Source: a virus. From it: DNA of 32,162 bases. The translations under genes and the position numbers were made by a program. The notes under the pieces are model-generated. The model saw only the letters and a list, made by a program, of their open reading frames with translations, was not told where the DNA came from and ran no database searches. This document shows positions 1 to 25,977 of the stretch, piece by piece. Each line of letters begins with the position of its first letter. The stretch's first letter is position 1. The stretch spans positions 1 through 32,162 of IMG/VR virus record IMGVR_UViG_3300017992_000059. The stretch is one strand, 5' to 3'.

Positions 1-3000
1 ATTTCTTAATAAGCGAGCTGATCTGTGTGTACCTTTATCGTCTATTAAATCTGAGTAAACACCAAACTGTGAAACGTCATTTATGTTTAATGCTTCCATG
101 TAATTACGTGAACGGAATGCTGTAATACCTAATCCAAGTTGATCTGCATCTGTTTCTAAATTAATTTGTGAACTATCATAGTATTTTGTAATAGCATCTG
201 CTTTAGTGTTTAAGTTAGGTAATAAACCTTTAGCAATTTGATCATAATCAACTTGTATCCATTCGTCGAAGTTTAAGTCTGCTTGTGGTTGTACTCTTGT
301 TGCTGCAACCCAATAACTATTCTTGAAGAATACTAAATCGCCTTTGTTATATGCTTTGTATGCTTCCCACTCGTCGACATTGTCTTGGTTAAGAATAAAG
401 CCTGGTGCATCTAATTGTCCGTTCCATTCAAACGTTGTAAAGCCATCTACTTTAACACGTTGTTGACGTAAGCCAGTGACTGGTTGGTATATTAAATCAC
501 TAAAGATAGATTGATTGTCAAGAACAATTAAGTGTTCATATGCAGTAGCTCTAAGTCTTAGATAACTTAATGCACTATCTTCATTGATGCTGTTAAACTT
601 AAAGTTATTATCTAAGCGTATAACACAATAATCTTTTTCTGTTAACGGACTTCTATTTTGATCTAGCGGCATTTCGTTTAATGCTAAGTTTCTAAGATCT
701 TCAATGATAGCTTGTTCACGTTCATATTCTAATGTAGTTGAACATGGGTTAATGTTAATAATACTACCAACAGTCCAACCTTGGTTAGCCCAGTATGCAA
801 ATTCTTCACACATTCTGCGCCAGTTCATTTCGTATGCATTTTCAACAGAGTTGAATAGTAAACCTTGTTGTAATAAGAATTCACCGTGACTTGCTAAGAA
901 GTCAACTACACCATTCTCACTTGTAAACGTTTGTCCATACGGAACACGATATACTTGATCAGCATAGAAATCTTTAGGTATACGAATTGTTTGATTCTTG
1001 CCGCCTGGTGCACCAACTAAGAAACTATCATAGTGTCCATTTGGTATAGACTTCATGACATTAAAGTATGGATCATTATTACTGTTACCATATACAGCAT
1101 AACCATCATCTGTTTTTTGAATCATAACAGATGAATACTGTAAATCACCAAATGCTTGGTTCTTATGTAATAACAATGAGTATGACTCGTCTGGTATTAA
1201 TAGGCTATTGTTTACAGAGTTAGGACTTGAATTGTCAATGAATATTTTTAAGTATTTCTTATCTGTAAAGCCAGCCATTCTATACATTAATCTAGAATCT
1301 AAATTAGTTAATGTATCTGTTAAATGTTGTGTAGCATTAATACCGTAATTGTTATTGTATTCAACTATCCAATTAATATAAGAGTGCTTAGGTACATTAG
1401 GACCTGCAACTTCTAAAGATCTTACATCTAATCTAAACTTACCATCGTAAGTATATTGTCCTAACAAATCGTTAAACATCCAACGATCTCTATCAGCCAT
1501 TAAGCTGAAGTATTGCGCTGGTTTTGTTAATGCTAATAATTTTTGTACTACGAATGGCCAGTTACTCGAACGTCTCCATGCTCCTTCAACTGGACCAACG
1601 TCACCTGCGTTCCATTGTTTCTTAAAGTCTGTTGCTGTATAGTTCTTAACAATCGCTTCAAATGGTGTGCGTAAGTTACCAGAACTATCGACAGGAATAA
1701 CGTCTAATAGATCTGGACGTACAAAACGTTCGTCTATAATGTCGCCTGCTGGATCTTTAATGATACCATCACGTAAGTCTTTCCATAATACTAAGTTACC
1801 ATCAGTATAAGGAGCAGGACCGTAACGATCTTCCCACCATGAAGGTTGTTCTGATAATCCTAACATTTCCCATGGATGAGTATGTGGAGAATCTGTATCA
1901 TATAAATCTTTAAAGATACCTCTCCAGTTACCGCGCAATGGCTTGCCATCTAATTTATTAGATGCTGTACTATAGTTCCAAGTCCATTCATCCTGTGCGA
2001 TATAATGTTGTTGTTTATATGGGAGCTTATGCCATCCTGACCACTGTAATAAATTAGTAGTTAAGATATCATCAATCTCTTGTGCGCTGTACTCTGTTGT
2101 TCTAAACTGACCAGGTACAACGTCTGCATAAGTCAATGGTAATGGGCTTGCATCTTTTGAACGTAAGTTATTGTAGATACGTTTTTCAAATTCTAACATA
2201 ACAGCATCACGAACGTCTAGCTCACTATCTGCTATATCACTAAAGCCAATTGTACGAGAACCATCGTGTCCTTTTAATACAATCTGATCAGTTTGGAATG
2301 TATTGTCTACATACACTTCTGGTTTGAACGCTGGGTATAAACCTAGTTTAGTTGGTGTAGGTGGAACGAAGTTACCATATGTTGTAGCAAATTCACGAAT
2401 AACTAATTTGTCACCGTAATCAACATCAGTTAATAATCTAATACGTGGACCGTTTGTTGCTACTTCATAGTCTGTGTCACGTATTAATTGTTCACCGTTT
2501 AAGTAAACAAGAATACCAGTGTTATTTGCAGTATCAAAATCATATACATTAACTGTATTGAATGTGTCTGTACTAATAACAGAGATTTCATAATCTGTTT
2601 CAGTATAATCTCCACCAAACGGTACCATGTCGCTCCAGTAAAATGCAGAGTCTTGTGTCTTACCGTAGTTAAGTTCTTTTAATGCTATGTCTAATACTTC
2701 AGCTGATGTTTTGCCATACGTGTCATAGTTACTAACCCATTCAATTAATTGATTTTTGAACTTCTCGTACTGTCTTGCAACAAAGTCTGTTGCAGCAAAG
2801 AAGTCGTATTCTGGGTTTCTTAATAATGTTGCTGCTATTGCAACTGGTGCAGAATGTTGTACAATAACGTCACCGTAAGATGCCACGTTACCATAGTCAC
2901 GTAAGTTATTCGCACCGTTAATTTGTCCTTGGAATCCGTTAACGTTTTCTACTAAGTTGTTATAATGGTTACGGATTGTGCCCAATGATAATTCTGTTAC

Positions 3001-5718
3001 ATGTTCATTGAATGTATTTGATTCTAAGTTATTAGGTATTTCGTAGTACGCAACATCACTTGTGTCAACACTGATTACTTTTACTACAATTCTTGTGTCT
3101 ACTGGGATATCAAACGTAAAATCAATATATGTTTGTTTTTCTTCTTCGTCTGTTGTTATGTTATAAAGTTCTGGATAAACAAATTCATTGTCGACATAAA
3201 TCTTAATAGCTGTTTCATCTACGTTTAAATCTGTACGTGGTAACACATCGAGAATTAAACTTGACCCATCATAATCAAACTCAAATACTTGACGTTGCCA
3301 ATTAATTTCAACGCTTTTAGTCCAGCCAATTTTTAAATCAAAATCAGTTAAGTTTTCGTATTGTCTAACATAACCGTTATTAACAGATTCTGTTATAGAT
3401 GTTGAGCCTGTAATATAAATGAACTCATCCGAGAACATATGATTCTGGAATACAATGTCGCCTAAGTTATCGATGTTCATGTAACTTAACGAAAATCCTA
3501 AAATAGGATCTTTGTTTAATGCTGTACTTTCTTTATATGAGAATAATTTAGAGCCAGTGAATGTTGTTGCTTTATAAACATCTTCATTGCTATAACTGTT
3601 ACTATTGACATCAAAGATATCAAACATTGGAGATTGGTTAACACCAAGTTTCTCTTGTGATAATACCCATTCTGTGCCAGTCCAGTTAAATTGTTGTCCT
3701 GCTATCTCTAAACCCGACGAACAAATTACCATTTGGTCAGGTTGTGCTGCTAATCCTGTATCGACTAAGTTGATAATATTTTCATACTCTGTATCATCAC
3801 CGTCTGGGTCAACAATTTGTACTTCGAATATTTTATTTCTAACTTCGGCATCTGTGTCTGCTGCAAATACAACACGGCTACCTGCAATTAATTGATGTCC
3901 AGCAACAGAGTATCCTGTGCTACCATGAATATTTGATAATGCATCTTCTTCTGTAAAATCAATGACATTAATTGTATCAAGTATTTGTGTACCGTAATTA
4001 AATAAACGTAAATTAGGGTAAAACTCAACAATAGGACGTTTGGCTCTAAAGTCATTGTCAACATTAACTAACGTTTCGTTATATTTTGCTGTTGCTTCAA
4101 TTACTTCTATATGGAACCAACGGTTAGAACGTGTCCAAGAGTTTAAATCCTGACTTGCTCTATTAATTGTTAAGTAGTCTGGTGTTCTTGGTGCATTAGC
4201 ACTTTCTTCAAATGCAATACTATCCCACGGGCTTGTATCCCACGGTGCTGATACACCTTCTACATATGATTCAGGAGTGATTAAGTCTGTAACTTTAACT
4301 AATACAATAGAAGAGCCAACACCCTCTACATAGTATTCTTCTTCTCTGTATTCTTCCGGAGTTACGTTGCCGCGAAACTTAACTTTTAATCCGTTTGTAA
4401 ATACTACACCGTTAGGTGAAACATAATTTGTTTTGCCAAGTATTTCACTAATATCAATACCTGAGTCGGTTGCTTGTTCAACTATTTTAATAACACCAAA
4501 GCTATTTGGATTAGTTTCATCTTGATAATATAATATATCGTTTGCGGCTGTTAATAAAGGTAATTCTTCAAATATACCTGATAAACTTCTGTAAAAACTG
4601 CGAGTTGCATATTCATTACCAAAGCTAACAGTAAAACGTTCTTCTAATTCAATGTCATCAATGGCTGTCAATGTGATGTAACAACCTTCATCTGTTCCTG
4701 CATTAGGATAAACATAGTTAATTCTAAATAACTGTGTTCTTTCATCTAATGTGTCAAAGTATTCTGCTGGTGCATAAACACCGTTGTCATAAACACCATC
4801 GTATGGACCGTTTTTAACCCATCCGATGTCTTCTGAATTACCATAAAAGTGATCTAAGAAAACTATAGTACGACCATCTAAGTCTGACACACCATCAATC
4901 TCGCCGACTTCGTCGACTAACTTACCGTGTATTTCATTGAACATTAATGTAGTTGCAAAGTCGACGTCTGTTCTAATAGGTAAGTTTTGATAGTATGATT
5001 GTGCATTTGCATTAGGTACGTTAAATGTAACGGTACCAATGTCATCACCGTTATTTGTTACACCTAATACATCACGACTACTAATGTTAGGTGAATGATT
5101 TAATGTACCATCTGTGCCTGGTTCTGTTTGAATCCAAAACTTAGAAGCTTGATCCACATTAAATGTATAACTGCCACCACGTGCTAATACTAACGTTGGG
5201 TTGTCGCCTGCAATGTCTGAGAAGTTATAGTAATCACCGTTTAATGTAACATCAAAATCATTGATTAATAATACGTCTGACGCTGATACGTCAACAGAGT
5301 CTGGACCATTTGGCAACCATACATACTGTCCATAGTTAACTAACTTATCAAAGTCAATTAACGGTTCCCATGAATATGTTTCACTTGCAAATAAACGGTC
5401 ATGGCGCTCTGTATGTGCTCCTTTGACATCAAGTGCATCTACAATTTCTGGATATGTAATAGCATCTGTTACTTTACCGTTATTATCTAAAAACGATATG
5501 CCTGGCTCAAGTTGATAGTTAGCACGAGTAGCATTTTGCTCTAATAAGTAACCATCAGTGTGATCCGTACCTGGACCATAACGTCTACCAATATAACCCT
5601 GTGTGCGTTTTAACTTAGGTTGTTGAACTAACTGGTCTAATGTTGCACCAAGGAACTGCTTATTGGCTTCAGTTTGAAAAATTTCTGGTAAAAAGTCTAC
5701 CGAACGAATGCGAGCCAT
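1..5718 (-). CDS. Giant baseplate/tail structural protein in the gp7 position (partial, C-terminus beyond window)
   Basis: An open frame runs from an ATG at 5718 to the left edge, 1,906 codons without a stop, so the protein is longer than 1,906 residues. It begins MARIRSVDFLPEIFQT. It starts 3 nt after the gp6 stop, in the place where T4 has gene 7 (wedge protein, about 1,030 aa). The sequence is rich in Tyr, Asn and Asp with many short beta-prone segments, and has no signal peptide or membrane segment, as expected for a virion structural protein. Near codons 1780-1820 (positions about 252-380) a W-x-x-x-x-Y-x-x-GD-x-V pattern resembles a CBM5/12 carbohydrate-binding module. I infer a baseplate-wedge or tail-periphery protein. 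Homology to T4 gp7 is suggested only by gene order. It could instead be a fibre-like protein that replaced it. Confidence 0.7.
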   Translation of the reverse strand, partial: MARIRSVDFLPEIFQTEANKQFLGATLDQLVQQPKLKRTQGYIGRRYGPGTDHTDGYLLEQNATRANYQLEPGISFLDNNGKVTDAITYPEIVDALDVKGAHTERHDRLFASETYSWEPLIDFDKLVNYGQYVWLPNGPDSVDVSASDVLLINDFDVTLNGDYYNFSDIAGDNPTLVLARGGSYTFNVDQASKFWIQTEPGTDGTLNHSPNISSRDVLGVTNNGDDIGTVTFNVPNANAQSYYQNLPIRTDVDFATTLMFNEIHGKLVDEVGEIDGVSDLDGRTIVFLDHFYGNSEDIGWVKNGPYDGVYDNGVYAPAEYFDTLDERTQLFRINYVYPNAGTDEGCYITLTAIDDIELEERFTVSFGNEYATRSFYRSLSGIFEELPLLTAANDILYYQDETNPNSFGVIKIVEQATDSGIDISEILGKTNYVSPNGVVFTNGLKVKFRGNVTPEEYREEEYYVEGVGSSIVLVKVTDLITPESYVEGVSAPWDTSPWDSIAFEESANAPRTPDYLTINRASQDLNSWTRSNRWFHIEVIEATAKYNETLVNVDNDFRAKRPIVEFYPNLRLFNYGTQILDTINVIDFTEEDALSNIHGSTGYSVAGHQLIAGSRVVFAADTDAEVRNKIFEVQIVDPDGDDTEYENIINLVDTGLAAQPDQMVICSSGLEIAGQQFNWTGTEWVLSQEKLGVNQSPMFDIFDVNSNSYSNEDVYKATTFTGSKLFSYKESTALNKDPILGFSLSYMNIDNLGDIVFQNHMFSDEFIYITGSTSITESVNNGYVRQYENLTDFDLKIGWTKSVEINWQRQVFEFDYDGSSLILDVLPRTDLNVDETAIKIYVDNEFVYPELYNITTDEEEKQTYIDFTFDIPVDTRIVVKVISVDTSDVAYYEIPNNLESNTFNEHVTELSLGTIRNHYNNLVENVNGFQGQINGANNLRDYGNVASYGDVIVQHSAPVAIAATLLRNPEYDFFAATDFVARQYEKFKNQLIEWVSNYDTYGKTSAEVLDIALKELNYGKTQDSAFYWSDMVPFGGDYTETDYEISVISTDTFNTVNVYDFDTANNTGILVYLNGEQLIRDTDYEVATNGPRIRLLTDVDYGDKLVIREFATTYGNFVPPTPTKLGLYPAFKPEVYVDNTFQTDQIVLKGHDGSRTIGFSDIADSELDVRDAVMLEFEKRIYNNLRSKDASPLPLTYADVVPGQFRTTEYSAQEIDDILTTNLLQWSGWHKLPYKQQHYIAQDEWTWNYSTASNKLDGKPLRGNWRGIFKDLYDTDSPHTHPWEMLGLSEQPSWWEDRYGPAPYTDGNLVLWKDLRDGIIKDPAGDIIDERFVRPDLLDVIPVDSSGNLRTPFEAIVKNYTATDFKKQWNAGDVGPVEGAWRRSSNWPFVVQKLLALTKPAQYFSLMADRDRWMFNDLLGQYTYDGKFRLDVRSLEVAGPNVPKHSYINWIVEYNNNYGINATQHLTDTLTNLDSRLMYRMAGFTDKKYLKIFIDNSSPNSVNNSLLIPDESYSLLLHKNQAFGDLQYSSVMIQKTDDGYAVYGNSNNDPYFNVMKSIPNGHYDSFLVGAPGGKNQTIRIPKDFYADQVYRVPYGQTFTSENGVVDFLASHGEFLLQQGLLFNSVENAYEMNWRRMCEEFAYWANQGWTVGSIININPCSTTLEYEREQAIIEDLRNLALNEMPLDQNRSPLTEKDYCVIRLDNNFKFNSINEDSALSYLRLRATAYEHLIVLDNQSIFSDLIYQPVTGLRQQRVKVDGFTTFEWNGQLDAPGFILNQDNVDEWEAYKAYNKGDLVFFKNSYWVAATRVQPQADLNFDEWIQVDYDQIAKGLLPNLNTKADAITKYYDSSQINLETDADQLGLGITAFRSRNYMEALNINDVSQFGVYSDLIDDKGTHRSARLLRN
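252..380 (-). other. CBM5/12-like carbohydrate-binding module inside the giant protein
   Basis: Read on the minus strand, the translation contains WEAYKAYNKGDLVFFKNSYW followed about 20 residues later by a DEW-I motif. Chitin-binding CBM5/12 domains have the same layout: an aromatic start, Y-x-x-GD-x-V-x-(Y/F), an exposed Y/W, an Ala-rich strand and a terminal W. The match rests on pattern alone. It would give the baseplate periphery a polysaccharide-binding patch. Confidence 0.45.
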
Positions 5719-14919: not shown

Positions 14920-15225
14920 TTAGAATCCTAATTCGTTTTTAAGTGTTTCTAATTGTGGTAAGAATATTTCTGTTCCTATTGTAAAGTCAAACAAAGGATC
15001 TTTTAATGTGTTAGGATTACGTTGTGCAAACACCCACCACAGTCTTGAATCTTCGTACAAGTCATAAGCTAACAAATCAGGACGTAAATGATACACTTGA
15101 TTTATTTGGAACATAGGGTCTGACGCTTTTTTAGATATAGGTCTATTAACCATTAAGTCTAAATAGTTACCTTCATTCTTTGTGTTGTAATATGGTGTTG
15201 TAGGTTTATAATCTGGCATTACCAA
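14920..15225 (-). CDS. gp53: Baseplate wedge subunit gp53
   Basis: This 101-residue protein has the conserved gp53 core: a short Tyr/Asn-rich lead (PTTPYYNTKNEGNYLDLMVN), then a LysM-like block RPDLLAYDLYEDSRLWWVFA, QRNPNTLKDPLFDF and a terminal IGTEIFLP. In T4, gp53 (196 aa) completes the wedge and lets wedges join around the hub, and it lies immediately before gene 5, as here. The ORF can start at 15225 (MVMPDYK) or at the second Met at 15219 (MPDYK). The first start overlaps the upstream stop. It is about half the length of T4 gp53 and seems to keep only the core. Confidence 0.82.
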   Translation of the reverse strand: MVMPDYKPTTPYYNTKNEGNYLDLMVNRPISKKASDPMFQINQVYHLRPDLLAYDLYEDSRLWWVFAQRNPNTLKDPLFDFTIGTEIFLPQLETLKNELGF

Positions 15226-16448
15226 TATCCTTTTCTAATTAACTTGCCCGAAGCATAATCTTCTAAGCTAAATTCGTTACTAACTTGATCACGTGTTTGT
15301 ACAGGCATGAATGTTAACTGAAATTGTATTTCAGATGGAACATACGTTTCTTTTTCTGTAAAGTTATTTGATCCTGAACTGCCTGAACTACCTGGTGATA
15401 AATCTAATTCTGGAATACCAAATGTTCCAGCAAATGCACCAGCAAAATCAAAGCCTTGTCCGCTAAGTCCCGAACTTACTAAACGTGATATGCGGCCGCT
15501 CCATGACTGGCCACCTGACCCTGATTGCATACGTCCTGTGTATGAGTTATTTGTCGACGGGCCAACATAAGCTCTAACATAGTCAACATTGTCTGGTAAT
15601 GTATATGTAAAGTTAGATAATACGCAAGGGTGTTCATTAAATTGAAACTCACCAAACCCACGCATGTATAATAATGGTGGTGGTGTACCTCTACGTTTAT
15701 CCTGACCATAAAACATTTTAGTAGCTGCCTTAAAGAAAGTCATTGCTGCTAACATATATTCTGCTTCGGCGGTGTCTTGAGCTGTAAACACACCATTAAC
15801 AATAACATCACCTGTTTGTGATCCTTGATAAAAGTAACCACGGTGATTGCTATGTGTTAAACTATATGATTCGTAATTTGCTTGATTTGATATAAACACG
15901 TTAGGCGTGTATGGAAATAATACGCCGTCTGTTTCTATCAATGGTTTTAATAGACCGGTACTAGCATTTGGGTGATTATACAAATAATCTGATGTCGGTG
16001 ACAAACTTACTCTAAAGCGCCAATCTGTTTTTTCTACTGTTCTTGTACCTTGATTTCTAAACGTTTCATTTTTTGAATCATTTATTAATAAGTCATCTAC
16101 ATCAGCTCTTGTTAAAGAGTTTTCACCTAATGTAAACGCATCATTGATAACAACTGGATCAAAGTCTCCTTGCTGAGCCGTTAACGAATTTAATCCTTGT
16201 CCTAGTGCTAATGCATCGTTTAATTGTGCTGTATCTTGATCAGCTAAGGTCAATGAATTAACACCGCCAAACGCATCGTTTAACACAGCCGGATCTTGAT
16301 CTGCAAAAGTTAATGAATTAACACCTTGCCCTCTAACGGAAACAACACTGTCACCCTCGATAACAAAGTCACCTGTACCTATTAGGTTTTGTGCTTGTTC
16401 TTGTGTTACTGTACCACCGTTAAATTTAAGTAAATTAGTTTGAGGCAT
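15219..16448 (-). CDS. Tail-tube-associated baseplate protein (gp48/gp54 position) with N-terminal repeats (409 aa)
   Basis: This is the first gene of the minus-strand baseplate operon. From residue about 140 it has a beta-rich fold with WRFRVSLSP, FPYTPNVFI, the HSNHRGYFYQGSQTGDVIVN segment, AQDTAEAEYMLAAMTFFKAA, TKMFYGQ and LPDNVDYVRA. This pattern recurs in tail-tube/baseplate cap proteins of marine T4-like phages, so a gp48 or gp54 role at the tube-baseplate junction is likely but not proven. Residues 42-125 are four imperfect copies of an approximately 20-residue unit (NSLT-x-AD-x-D ... (L/I)NDA). A Ser/Gly linker (SPGSSGSSGSNN) lies near residue 355. A late promoter precedes it with a 21-nt leader containing AGGA. 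Confidence 0.7.
   Translation of the reverse strand: MPQTNLLKFNGGTVTQEQAQNLIGTGDFVIEGDSVVSVRGQGVNSLTFADQDPAVLNDAFGGVNSLTLADQDTAQLNDALALGQGLNSLTAQQGDFDPVVINDAFTLGENSLTRADVDDLLINDSKNETFRNQGTRTVEKTDWRFRVSLSPTSDYLYNHPNASTGLLKPLIETDGVLFPYTPNVFISNQANYESYSLTHSNHRGYFYQGSQTGDVIVNGVFTAQDTAEAEYMLAAMTFFKAATKMFYGQDKRRGTPPPLLYMRGFGEFQFNEHPCVLSNFTYTLPDNVDYVRAYVGPSTNNSYTGRMQSGSGGQSWSGRISRLVSSGLSGQGFDFAGAFAGTFGIPELDLSPGSSGSSGSNNFTEKETYVPSEIQFQLTFMPVQTRDQVSNEFSLEDYASGKLIRKGYW
16074..16325 (-). repeat. Four tandem ~60-bp coding repeats at the N-terminus of the 409-aa protein
   Basis: Units begin at GVNSLTFADQD, GVNSLTLADQD, GLNSLTAQQGD and ENSLTRADVDD, each followed by a (L/I)NDA/S segment. The first two are also close at the DNA level (shared gcatcgtttaa, cttgatc and aatgaattaacacc on the plus strand), with a 60-bp period. 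The later units have drifted. Confidence 0.8.
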
Positions 16449-21574: not shown

Positions 21575-22009
21575 ATGCAATGGACGTACCAAGGTAAATT
21601 AGTAGAATCAATACCAAACGAGTACATTGGATTTGTATATCTTATCACTAACTTAACAACCGATCAAAAATATGTCGGTAAAAAGTTAGCAAAATTTACG
21701 CGAACAAAGCCTCCGTTAAAAGGAAAGAAGCGTAAGCGTAAAACATTAGTTGAAAGTGACTGGCAAACGTATTGGGGTAGCAGCGATCGTTTAAATGCAG
21801 ATGTATTAGCATTAGGCGAAAAAAACTTCAAACGTGAAATACTTTATTACTGCACCTCAAAAGCAGAGATGAGTTATATTGAGGCTAGAGAACAATTCGA
21901 CAGACGAGTTTTAGAAACAGACGAATACTATAACGGCATTATTAATGTTAGAGTAGGCGGTTCAGAAAAACTCAGAAAGGCACTTTTAGAACATAATATT
22001 AAGGCATAA
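21575..22009 (+). CDS. GIY-YIG-like nuclease-family protein (144 aa)
   Basis: The N-terminal core GFVYLITNLTTDQKYVGKK (residues 19-37) matches the GIY-(10-11 aa)-YIG pattern with variant residues. It is followed by a Lys/Arg-rich loop (LKGKKRKRKT), WQTYWGSS, a candidate catalytic Glu in YIEAREQF (E103) and a terminal Asn-containing YYNGIINVR. Such short stand-alone proteins are common in T4-like genomes and are often called homing endonucleases (Seg-like). It has no separate DNA-recognition domain, so mobility is uncertain. It lies 37 nt after gp46, as the last gene of the plus-strand operon. Confidence 0.72.
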   Translation: MQWTYQGKLVESIPNEYIGFVYLITNLTTDQKYVGKKLAKFTRTKPPLKGKKRKRKTLVESDWQTYWGSSDRLNADVLALGEKNFKREILYYCTSKAEMSYIEAREQFDRRVLETDEYYNGIINVRVGGSEKLRKALLEHNIKA

Positions 22010-22061: not shown

Positions 22062-22205
22062 AAAAAATAAAACTATCGAATTTGAAACACTAAGTGGATG
22101 CGGCGTGAAACCTGGAGAAGTAGCTAGTGTAACCTTAACATGGGGGTTTTAATACATGTGGTAGAACTTGCTACATATCAGTAGACAAGAAGACCAAGCT
22201 CGTGC

Positions 22206-22238
22206 GATAGCGGGGACTGTAATCACTATCCTTTACAG
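22206..22238 (+). other. Interleaved stems: candidate H-type pseudoknot
   Basis: GATAG (22206-22210) pairs with CTATC (22226-22230), while CTGTAA (22217-22222) pairs with TTACAG (22233-22238). The two helices interleave. The last strand also overlaps ACAGG (22235-22239), which can pair with CCTGT (22256-22260), so alternative folds are possible. Confidence 0.45.
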
Positions 22239-22474
22239 GACGATGATACGATATGCCTGTGAACTTTCAATGTCTTTTGTAGTTCACTAACGTGTTTGAT
22301 TACTTTTAAGTGGCAATAAAAAAGGCTAAATGATGTGGCTCTGTTAATCACAATTGCAACCACAAGTTTATAAATGCTGTATGATTAGGTGTTTATAAGC
22401 TCCCGTTAGTTTACTAAAATAATAGTATAAATTATTGAAACCATGCTAATTTACTACTATTCTAGTACAAAGTC

Positions 22475-22830: not shown

Positions 22831-22868
22831 TAAAAAACCCTAACAAGGCACTTAGTTAGGGTTCTTTA
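22831..22868. terminator. Strong bidirectional terminator between convergent units
   Basis: AACCCTAAC (22836-22844) and GTTAGGGTT (22855-22863) form a perfect 9-bp stem with a 10-nt loop. On the minus strand it is followed by TTTTTT, ending the gp26 unit; on the plus strand by CTTT, which could end the candidate RNA. Confidence 0.85.
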
Positions 22869-22924
22869 AATAGGCATTATACTTTACATGGATAAGGTAG
22901 GAGTAAAGTACAAAATTATTTATC

Positions 22925-23152
22925 TTAAAAGAATGGCAAATGTGTTTTTTTCGTTGTTTCTAAATTCTCATCGATTATCTTGTTAATAGTATCGCGTTCG
23001 TTTTTGTCTAATTGCATTGCTTGATTGTAGTTTAGTCCACCACGCATAAACCAACACATCTTTAATATATTTTCTTTTAGACTCTTAACTTCTTGTTCGT
23101 AGCTATCAACTAATTTCTCAATTTCGGAAACTTCTAACGTTAATAGCTTCAT
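22925..23152 (-). CDS. 75-aa tail-assembly protein, probably expressed as a -1 frameshift extension of gp26
   Basis: The ORF begins at the ATG overlapping the gp26 stop (ATGA). No Shine-Dalgarno sequence precedes it. The protein is helical (LEVSEIEKLVDSYEQEVKSL) with CWFMRGGLNYNQAMQLDKNE and a Lys-rich end TTKKTHLPFF. The 'W-x-x-R-G-G-x-x-(Y/F)-x-x-A-x-x-L' pattern resembles the second (T-like) part of tail-assembly chaperones, which sits beside the tape-measure gene in most long-tailed phages. Here the tape measure lies just across the divergent promoter. With the slippery site at the end of gp26, a gp26-75aa fusion is likely. Without frameshifting it could be translated by stop-start coupling. 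Confidence 0.7.
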   Translation of the reverse strand: MKLLTLEVSEIEKLVDSYEQEVKSLKENILKMCWFMRGGLNYNQAMQLDKNERDTINKIIDENLETTKKTHLPFF

Positions 23153-23161
23153 CCGAAAAAA
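23122..23161 (-). promoter_or_regulatory. Putative programmed -1 ribosomal frameshift site
   Basis: Minus-strand gp26 ends GAT TTT TTC GGA TGA. The heptamer U UUU UUC (23161 to 23155) is in the correct X-XXY-YYZ register. A -1 slip reads CGG ATG AAG, entering the 75-aa frame and avoiding the stop at 23149-23151. TTTCGGA (23158-23152) can pair perfectly with TCCGAAA (23128-23122), a 7-bp stem that overlaps the slippery site and closes around a 23-nt loop. Confidence 0.65.
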
Positions 23162-23976
23162 TCAGTCATGTTTATAGTAAATGGTTGCTCATATTTGTGA
23201 CCACATTCTTTACATTCGATCTGTAAAGGCTTGAGTTCAGCTTTTCTGCGAATACCTGTTACTTCTTCTTTTAACTTATTGAACACATTTTTATCGCAAT
23301 TAAAGATAAATTCTGCAATATGTTCTTTATCGTGTACAGTTGTGTCTGGTGTTTCGATGTATTCGATTGTGTTAATAATTGCATTTAATGTGAGTTTACT
23401 AATTTTCTTAAATGCTTCACCTATTAATTTTATTTTTTCTTCTTCAGATAAATCAGCACTTACAGTATAAGCATACATTTTTTGTTCTTCGAACTGTGAT
23501 AAATTATTCTCATTGATTTCTTTGAAGTTCAATGGTTTGAACTTAAATTGTAAATCACCAATTGAAATAACTTTATTATAATCTGGAGTCTTCAACCCTT
23601 CGAGTATCAATCTTAGATCCACACCGTATCTATCAGCATTTTCACATTCTGGGCATGTAGTATCAATATCCATTTGATGCCCGGATGTTGCTAATCTAAT
23701 TGATATTAATACAGTATCCAAATCCACTGATTTTAATTCCCAGGCATTTTTTATATTTGGTACACAACTTTGTATAACATCTACAATTGATTGCCCATTG
23801 AATAAAGCGTCGGGCGTTTTATATGATATTTCATCAGACGCTGTCATTGGGAAAACTGGAAATTCAAAGTTCTCTGGTATTTCTAAGGATCCTACTGGAT
23901 AACCTTGTCCTTTAGACGGTAATGTAATATAAATTGATGGGCGTCTAAAATAATTTGATAATGGATTTGTACTCAT
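23149..23976 (-). CDS. gp26: Baseplate hub assembly protein gp26-like (T4_baseplate family)
   Basis: This 275-residue protein has the family pattern: an N-terminal YFRRPSIYITLPSKGQGYP, then EFPVFPMTASDEISYKTPDA and SCVPNIKNAWELKSVDLDTV, as in T4 gp26-type hub assembly proteins (T4 gp26 is 208 aa). Two CxxC pairs, CPEC (near residue 109) and CKEC (near 256), look like zinc ribbons. In T4, gp26 is needed for hub assembly. Here it lies head to head with the tape measure and ends in a slippery heptamer leading into the 75-aa ORF, so it may correspond to the G part of a G/GT tail-assembly chaperone. The ATG at 23976 has a GAGG ribosome site and a late promoter 25 nt upstream of it. Confidence 0.82.
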   Translation of the reverse strand: MSTNPLSNYFRRPSIYITLPSKGQGYPVGSLEIPENFEFPVFPMTASDEISYKTPDALFNGQSIVDVIQSCVPNIKNAWELKSVDLDTVLISIRLATSGHQMDIDTTCPECENADRYGVDLRLILEGLKTPDYNKVISIGDLQFKFKPLNFKEINENNLSQFEEQKMYAYTVSADLSEEEKIKLIGEAFKKISKLTLNAIINTIEYIETPDTTVHDKEHIAEFIFNCDKNVFNKLKEEVTGIRRKAELKPLQIECKECGHKYEQPFTINMTDFFG

Positions 23977-23986
23977 GATTTCCTCG

Positions 23987-23994
23987 TATAAATA
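23987..23994 (+). promoter_or_regulatory. T4-type late promoter for the tape measure gene
   Basis: This is a perfect TATAAATA on the plus strand. The predicted start is near 24000, 28 nt before the GTG at 24028. It faces the minus-strand promoter at 24007-24014. Confidence 0.8.
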
Positions 23995-24006
23995 GTATAA
24001 TAAACC

Positions 24007-24014
24007 TATTTATG
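24007..24014 (-). promoter_or_regulatory. T4-type late promoter for gp26
   Basis: The minus strand reads CATAAATA. The predicted start is near 24001, one base from the start of the opposing promoter, with a 25-nt leader to the gp26 ATG. Confidence 0.75.
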
Positions 24015-24027
24015 AGGCATAAAAAAC

Positions 24028-25977
24028 GTGGCAGAATATACACCAGAAGACATACAAAGAATGTCCGACGATGCACTTAACGCAATTCGAAATCTTGAAA
24101 TTACAGCAGACGCATCAGAAAGAGCACAGCGAAAATTAAACGCAGTTAAAGCTAAAGGCACTGCAACGACCGAAGAATTAAATTCTGCAATGTCTAAAGC
24201 CGAATTAGCTCAGCGTAGACATGCCGAAGCTGAACGAGAAGCAGAACTTACAACTAGAAGATTCTCTAAGCAAATAGCCACTACTAAACAAGGTCTTAAA
24301 AGTTTAGGCGGAGAGTTTCTGGGTGTTGGTAAACAATTTGCTACTGGTTCAACAGATATTACTATATTTTCGGACGTTATTAAAACAGCTACAAACGTGG
24401 TATCTGAGTTAGCTGGATCAATTCCTGTTGTTGGATCTTATTTAGAATCGTTTGGTAAAGGTGTCGGCGAAGCTGGTGCATTCCTTGTTGAGCGATTAGG
24501 TGTAACTTATGATTCGTTTCAAAAATTAAGTTCAGTTGGTGCAACCGCCGGTGATGGAATGGAAAACATCGTTGCAGGGTTTGAACGTTTACAATTACCA
24601 CTAGCAGAATATACTGCCCTAATAGGTGATAATGCAGAATTACTTGCATCACTAGGAGTCACAACACACGATTCCATTGAGGCAATTACAGGTGCTTCAG
24701 CATCATTTAAAACTTCAGAAATAGGTAAACAATTTCGTATGCTAGGTTATTCTGCTGAAGATTTTACTGAATCAATGATTGAATATTCAGACATGCAGCG
24801 TAAAATGGGTCAGGCTGATATGATGGATCAGTACAATCTAACACAGTCGACACAAAAGTATCTACTTGAACTTGATGCTATTGCTAAAATAACTGGTATG
24901 AGTCGTAAAGAAGCTGAAAACGACATGAAGTCAAGAATGGGCGATGATAGATTCCGTGCTATGACTGCTAAAATGGTTGCTAACGGACAAGAAGATTTAG
25001 CACGTCAAATGAATGCTACATTAACAGTATTAGGCAAACATGACAAAGACTTAGCAACAGGTTTAGGGCATTTAATGACAGGTTTTGCTAGTTCTGAAGA
25101 AGCAACAAAAGTATTAGTTACATTAGGCTCAGAAGCACAAACTGCCGCAGTAGCTTTTAAAGAAGGACGTATTAGTCAGGAAGAATTTACAAATACCATT
25201 CAAAAACAAGCCGGCGCATATACATCGTCAATGGGAGACTTAACAGAAGCAGTAGGTACACCTCAAGGCTTCTTAGACTTCTCTAAAATGATGGATTTAT
25301 CAACTGAAAAGTACGGAAAGCTAGGAGAAGCAATTGATAAGGTTATGGTTAAACAGCAAGAACAAATGACAGCTCTTGGTGGAGTAACCGATTCGTTAAA
25401 CGAATCAAAATTAAATATAGAAAAATCAGCAACTGCTTTATCGTCGTTGACTGCTGATAGTAAATTAATGGCTGATGCTGTTAAAATAATGACAGAGGCA
25501 ATGGAAAAAGCAACAACATGGATTAAAGAAAATGTTGACGCTGATACCAAACAAGAAAAATATCGTAAAAGTTTAGGCAATAGACGCAAATACAGAGGTA
25601 GTCAAAGAAAACGAGCTAACACACAAAATATTAATAACAATATAGCTAACACTCAAAACATTACTACAGAAGAAATTGTTAATGAAAATCCGGATGTAAT
25701 GAAGGTTACTCCTAATCTTCAAGCACCTGTTGAAACTAAAACAACTACAACTCCAACATTAAAACCAGACAAAAAACAACCAAGTAATGTTACAGAGCCA
25801 ACTAAACCTGCAGATAAAACAATAGATAATAAACAAGCACGTTATGAAACTGAATCAATGAATAGACAATTAACTGCATCATTGAATACAATGACTAACT
25901 ATTTAAGAGTGCAAAATAGCAAAATGGATGAGTTAATACGCCATAATAAAAACATTGCTAACAATACAACAGTCTGA
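24028..25977 (+). CDS. Tail tape measure protein (gp29-like, 649 aa)
   Basis: This protein sets tail length and is expelled during infection. It is predicted to be mostly helical: an Ala/Glu/Arg-rich coiled coil at residues 15-90 (ASERAQRKLNAVKAK, then AEAEREAELTTRRFS), a hydrophobic central segment near 115-165 (VVSELAGSIPVVGSYLESFG, then AGAFLVERLG), further helices to 500, a basic linker near 515-530 and a Thr/Pro/Asn-rich stretch before a final coiled coil. At about 1.5 angstrom per residue, 649 aa would give a tail near 100 nm, close to T4 (gp29, 590 aa). The start is GTG at 24028, with GAGG at 24014-24017. Its neighbours, gp26 and the 75-aa chaperone-like ORF, support the call. Sequence homology to T4 gp29 itself is not obvious. 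Confidence 0.8.
   Translation: MAEYTPEDIQRMSDDALNAIRNLEITADASERAQRKLNAVKAKGTATTEELNSAMSKAELAQRRHAEAEREAELTTRRFSKQIATTKQGLKSLGGEFLGVGKQFATGSTDITIFSDVIKTATNVVSELAGSIPVVGSYLESFGKGVGEAGAFLVERLGVTYDSFQKLSSVGATAGDGMENIVAGFERLQLPLAEYTALIGDNAELLASLGVTTHDSIEAITGASASFKTSEIGKQFRMLGYSAEDFTESMIEYSDMQRKMGQADMMDQYNLTQSTQKYLLELDAIAKITGMSRKEAENDMKSRMGDDRFRAMTAKMVANGQEDLARQMNATLTVLGKHDKDLATGLGHLMTGFASSEEATKVLVTLGSEAQTAAVAFKEGRISQEEFTNTIQKQAGAYTSSMGDLTEAVGTPQGFLDFSKMMDLSTEKYGKLGEAIDKVMVKQQEQMTALGGVTDSLNESKLNIEKSATALSSLTADSKLMADAVKIMTEAMEKATTWIKENVDADTKQEKYRKSLGNRRKYRGSQRKRANTQNINNNIANTQNITTEEIVNENPDVMKVTPNLQAPVETKTTTTPTLKPDKKQPSNVTEPTKPADKTIDNKQARYETESMNRQLTASLNTMTNYLRVQNSKMDELIRHNKNIANNTTV

Follow-up and report, generated by a model that had tools for sequence, protein, structure and literature searches.

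Does the gp26-like gene of a bacterial virus stand next to a small independent gene, or are the two reading frames one gene that is joined by a programmed -1 frameshift? We addressed this question for a 32,162-base IMG/VR virus record (the window), which belongs to a virus of bacteria. In this window a gp26-like ORF of 275 aa is followed by an ORF of 75 aa, and a preliminary description had taken both for a short and long chaperone pair of the adjacent tape measure.

The gp26-like short form, which we call TAC-N, is encoded at positions 23149-23976 (minus strand), and its gene ends on that strand as ...ACT GAT TTT TTC GGA TGA AGC.... Direct reading of these letters bore out that the heptamer U_UUU_UUC (T_TTT_TTC, 23155-23161, minus strand) lies in the gp26 register, upstream of the zero-frame TGA that ends the short form (23149-23151, minus strand). 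TTTTTTC occurs in register only this once among the 8184 codon positions of the 21 ORFs in the window, close to the gp26 stop. A -1 slip on this site would give FF-R-MKLL and enter the 75-aa frame one codon before its ATG, as had been described. The extension opened by the slip, TAC-C, comprises 76 codons (CGG...TTT) and a stop (22925-23155, minus strand), so that the fusion TAC-NC would measure 350 aa. The 75-aa ORF as separately called (22925-23152) starts at the ATG that overlaps the gp26 stop as ATGA. While the start of gp26 is preceded by the Shine-Dalgarno-like ACGAGGAAATCATG, no such motif was found upstream of the ATG of the 75-aa ORF in the window. Thereby the overlap and the lack of a ribosome site at the second start, both claimed previously, were confirmed.

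If the heptamer is used, it should be kept across relatives despite synonymous drift, as the preliminary description had proposed to check. A scan of viral contigs yielded 64 loci, and with phage records added the gp26 3' end was available for 72 loci (a DNA-level search of phage records found nothing); homologues of the clade reach down to about 30% protein identity. We used 49 representatives for counts of starts and pairing and 47 for the tree. T_TTT_TTC was present in register near the gp26 stop at 72 of 72 homologous loci. Over the tree, both slip codons showed zero synonymous changes, in comparison to 6-13 changes in each of the other conserved two-fold-degenerate columns. The codon ahead of TTT TTC varied (AAT, GAT, AGT, CAT, GCT, ACT, TCT, CGT) with a final T in all cases, and the heptamer is followed by G in 46/47, so that the -1 frame continues with Arg. 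The zero-frame stop is mobile, usually lying 1-4 and up to 11 codons past the slip. A naive chance estimate for the conservation of the heptamer gives log10 P = -44, a value that takes the representatives as independent and is overstated given their relatedness; the contrast over the tree is the safer statement. Within the clade, no locus had lost the heptamer while keeping both ORFs and a good ribosome site for the second. The distant Pseudomonas phage Cygsa01 (L074, 2072-2982) has gp26- and gp51-type ORFs without a heptamer, joined as TAATG and with no visible ribosome site, and its lineage may express the C domain in another way.

The -1 frame is conserved in the 47 representatives from the first codon after the slip (Arg in 46/47) and stays open for 70-78 codons in relatives. 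Changes in the extension fell on codon positions 1/2/3 in numbers of 816/482/1215 over the tree. Directly after the gp26 gene, tblastn found counterparts of the 75-aa ORF in Atu_ph07 and Phosso, and AlphaFold2 predicted TAC-C confidently as all helical (pLDDT 89.9); the ORF had no significant match among Pfam and PHROG families. By sequence comparison, the -1 frame is thus under selection at the protein level and joined to the short form, and we infer that it is translated as a fusion to the gp26-like protein. The frames could instead be two genes, the second of them translated by termination and reinitiation at the overlap with TTTTTTC being incidental. The overlap itself would suit such a mechanism, as ATGA is present in the window and 4 other representatives, TTGA in 13 and TAATG in 121Q, and so would the arrangement in Cygsa01. 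Nevertheless, no ATG, GTG or TTG lies within 30 nt of the stop in 11 of the 49 representatives, and only one of those having a start shows a Shine-Dalgarno-like motif before it. Additionally, the residues between the slip and any downstream start are conserved in the -1 frame and the slip codons are frozen. We therefore regard reinitiation as improbable as the main route, although translational coupling at the overlap could supply some additional free C domain.

A further element was found in the RNA past the slip site. The segment 3-73 nt past the heptamer folds better than its shuffles (mean z -2.67), and most representatives contain perfect stems of 7-16 bp that start 4-7 nt past the heptamer, with lineage-specific offsets of the 3' arm. 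Shuffling of synonymous codons keeps the -1 frame protein and is independent of any grouping by offset; the summed stem score was 1038, in comparison to 574.5 +/- 18.6 in 400 such shuffles (largest 634). The stem reached p < 0.05 by these shuffles in 36 of 47 representatives, including the window (p 0.035; z -2.2), and was not significant in RaK2, 121Q, GAP32, Munch, SCTP-2 and several others. In the window, the 5' arm AGCTATTAAC (23139-23148, minus strand) begins 6 nt after the heptamer and pairs with the 3' arm GTTGATAGCT (23101-23110, minus strand).

When 41 gapless sequences were folded together in a single global RNAalifold run, no structure emerged, a result that probably reflects the lineage-dependent position of the 3' arm; grouping by arm offset resolved the stems. 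In the offset-93 group, compensatory changes were observed at 7 of 16 pairs, with a covariation of 0.248 in comparison to at most 0.070 when slid. In the group of the window, which holds 5 sequences, two of them close, 7 of 11 pairs had changed on both sides (covariation 0.709 vs. at most 0.136) and 98.2% of cells were paired, a percentage that leans towards structure, as do those of the other groups, since groups were picked by their best-stem offset. The stem of the offset-86 group (alignment A3) is backed by the pairing percentage and not clearly by pair types. Hairpins at a similar spacing are also present in P-SSM5 and XacN1. A different pairing, TTTCGGA with TCCGAAA, had been proposed before; it can be found in the window, yet just 1 of the 49 representatives has it, and we attribute it to chance and regard the covarying arms as the relevant structure.

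The same fusion could arise from transcriptional slippage at the T6 run, which would produce mRNAs with an extra U. A homopolymer run is present, and fusions of this type are known to arise by slippage (PMC5009743). Yet within the clade the run is never longer, even though slippage should become easier with length; the codon phase and the seventh base are fixed, and the covarying stem stands at a ribosomal spacing. We consider this origin highly improbable. The reading of a -1 ribosomal frameshift is favored because the heptamer is invariant under synonymous drift, the -1 frame is conserved, starts are absent in many relatives and the stem covaries.

In order to place the product among known families, we compared the 275-aa protein with profiles and folds. 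It is a member of PF12322 T4_baseplate (E 2.1e-15; 57.4 bits with a gathering cut-off of 24.5) and matched the baseplate hub family PHROG_150 (E 2.1e-16). The AlphaFold2 model of TAC-N (pLDDT 87.9) retrieved T4-like baseplate hub assembly proteins by Foldseek; sequence and fold searches of the PDB gave no relatives among solved structures. Two BFVD models with consecutive accessions, A0A343LED6 and A0A343LED7, both of Leptospira phage LE4, gave a match to the fold of TAC-N (E 2.1e-4) and a weak one to that of TAC-C (E 1.5). These predicted folds suggest that the same cassette may exist in this distant phage. The nearest named relatives of the 275-aa protein are all jumbo phages (Phosso, Atu_ph07, RaK2, 121Q, GAP32, PA5oct). 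The previous assignment to a T4-like phage is corrected accordingly: the closest phages (Phosso, Atu_ph07, RaK2/121Q) are jumbo phages and not T4 itself.

T4 gp26 and gp51 both belong to PF12322, as does TAC-N of the window. In T4 they are two divergent genes, unlike the single, putatively frameshifted locus described here, and T4 gp26 ends TTC TTT GAG TTA CTA TAA, without a heptamer, followed by gene 25. The fusion family aligned with gp51 across the junction and including the C domain (E 5.7e-7 in a single comparison). Intermediates matched gp51 with 3.4e-23 and their C domains with 9.8e-15, and the C domain of the clade alone matched it weakly (83.8% probability over 34 columns). Since gp51 aligns through the junction and the intermediates match it, T4 gp51 looks like a permanently fused long form, with gp26 as the short form. 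Further, the heptamer or a variant of it (TTTTTTG, TTTTTTT) with an open -1 frame was found beyond the clade in P-SSM5, RL38J1, LG08, VmeM-32, S13, phiAS5, XacN1 and RAS14; the genes of the cyanophage P-SSM5 are annotated as gp26 and gp51.

On the other side of TAC-N lies a divergent gene for a 649-aa protein (24028-25977, plus strand). A large divergent ORF was found beside TAC in 44 of 45 representatives with upstream sequence, Atu_ph07 being the one exception; it encodes 568-1261 aa where complete and is homologous in many. The RaK2 counterpart is annotated as tape-measure-like, and in the PA5oct record the counterpart is marked as detected by mass spectrometry while the gp26-like protein is not so marked. 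A profile comparison of the 649-aa protein with T4 gp29 gave no match, for which reason we designate the neighbor only as a presumed tape measure protein. Possible T4-type late promoters stand back to back between the two genes, CATAAATA (24007-24014, minus strand) for TAC and TATAAATA (23987-23994, plus strand) for the tape-measure-like gene; they are proposed from position only, and matches to the motif in the whole window are fewer than expected by chance. A late-promoter-like ATAAATA also lies right after the stop codon of TAC-C (22917-22923, minus strand), with no evident gene downstream. The TAC mRNA probably ends at an intrinsic terminator (22831-22868, minus strand) with a long stem and a U run (-17.4 kcal/mol, z -3.8).

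Other features of the window include a match to the Rfam family RF01718, Polynucleobacter-1 RNA (22133-22277, plus strand; 39.6 bits, above the gathering score, E 6.3e-7 in a local search), in the non-coding gap between an ORF ending at 22009 and TAC-C. A 409-aa ORF (15219-16448, minus strand) has at its start several imperfect copies of a motif that includes NSLT...D and ND, and a 1906-aa ORF (1-5718, minus strand) runs past the end of the window.

Taken together, the comparisons establish that slip site, -1 frame and stem are conserved and that a family relation to gp26/gp51 exists, and from homology, architecture and neighborhood we infer the chaperone role. We conclude that, very probably, the gp26-like gene and the following ORF form one frameshifted chaperone gene with a short (TAC-N, 275 aa) and a long product (TAC-NC, 350 aa) that would serve the adjacent presumed tape measure, in support of the pairing proposed in the preliminary description. 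Most ribosomes would end at the TGA and release TAC-N. A minority, with Phe-tRNA in the P and A sites on U_UUU_UUC and delayed by the stem 6 nt downstream, would slip back one base and make TAC-NC with its 76-residue helical C domain. Like lambda gpG/gpGT, both forms could then chaperone the tape measure protein during assembly: many short copies would coat it, and the C domain of the long form would recruit either the tail tube or the initiator of the tube. T4 would obtain these products from two genes, the short one from gp26 and the fused long one from gp51. The frameshift could also be real with the pair serving baseplate hub assembly (e.g., gp27/gp5-type proteins) in place of the tape measure, in line with the listing of T4 gp26 and gp51 as hub assembly chaperones, gp51 being called "of unknown function" (PMC3004832, a 2010 review). 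We hold this role to be unlikely, as the cassette resembles G/GT in its layout and nearly always has a tape-measure-like gene of variable length beside it. The two readings do overlap, since the listed hub components of T4 include gp29.

What is newest about the locus is its covarying stem, which relocates between lineages. We rather favor a history in which the 5' arm of a stimulatory stem stayed fixed 4-7 nt past the slip and the 3' arm was re-invented at several distances inside the coding region of the C domain, with T4 representing a later step in which duplication and fusion (gp26/gp51) replaced the frameshift.

The earlier statement that T4 is not usually listed with such a cassette agrees with a 2016 review that describes wide conservation of G-T frameshifting among long-tailed phages, "except T4" (PMC5009743), and is outdated by the identification of T4-like tail assembly chaperones in 2022 (Vladimirov, Gautam and Davidson, Virology 566:9), as cited in the available parts of PMC10885494 and PMC12846349. 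According to these parts, instead of frameshifting, some T4-like phages use a short gene plus a longer, fused one (PMC10885494, from the 2022 work), and TAC-N genes of T4-like phages are known to contain poly-T signals (PMC12846349), matching the predicted short and long forms of the window. PMC12846349 describes the tail assembly chaperone of Vandenendeviridae/Andersonviridae, which resembles the locus of the window in its poly-T signal, its open -1 frame and the conservation of the -1 frameshift; the signal is reported as GTTTTT, and these are other phage families than the window clade. Since such chaperones with poly-T signals and with short and fused genes are on record, the kind is already known, and by its sequence the locus would be a strongly supported member. 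Neither jumbo-phage members nor a covarying stem are mentioned in the accessible portions of this literature, although either may have been described elsewhere. In comparison to lambda gpG/gpGT, to which no sequence relation is shown, the window uses the slip site U_UUU_UUC and not that of lambda, the downstream stem is conserved in its clade, and its TAC gene is divergent from the tape-measure-like gene.

With this reading, two jumbo-phage ORFs that were annotated apart, as a baseplate hub protein and a hypothetical protein, would become one frameshifted chaperone gene. The locus backs the view that the tail-assembly chaperones of T4 comprise a short form, gp26, and a long form, gp51. Additionally, the action and relocation of a bacterial -1 frameshift stem could be studied in cultivable systems (121Q, RaK2, Atu_ph07) and over a deep natural alignment.
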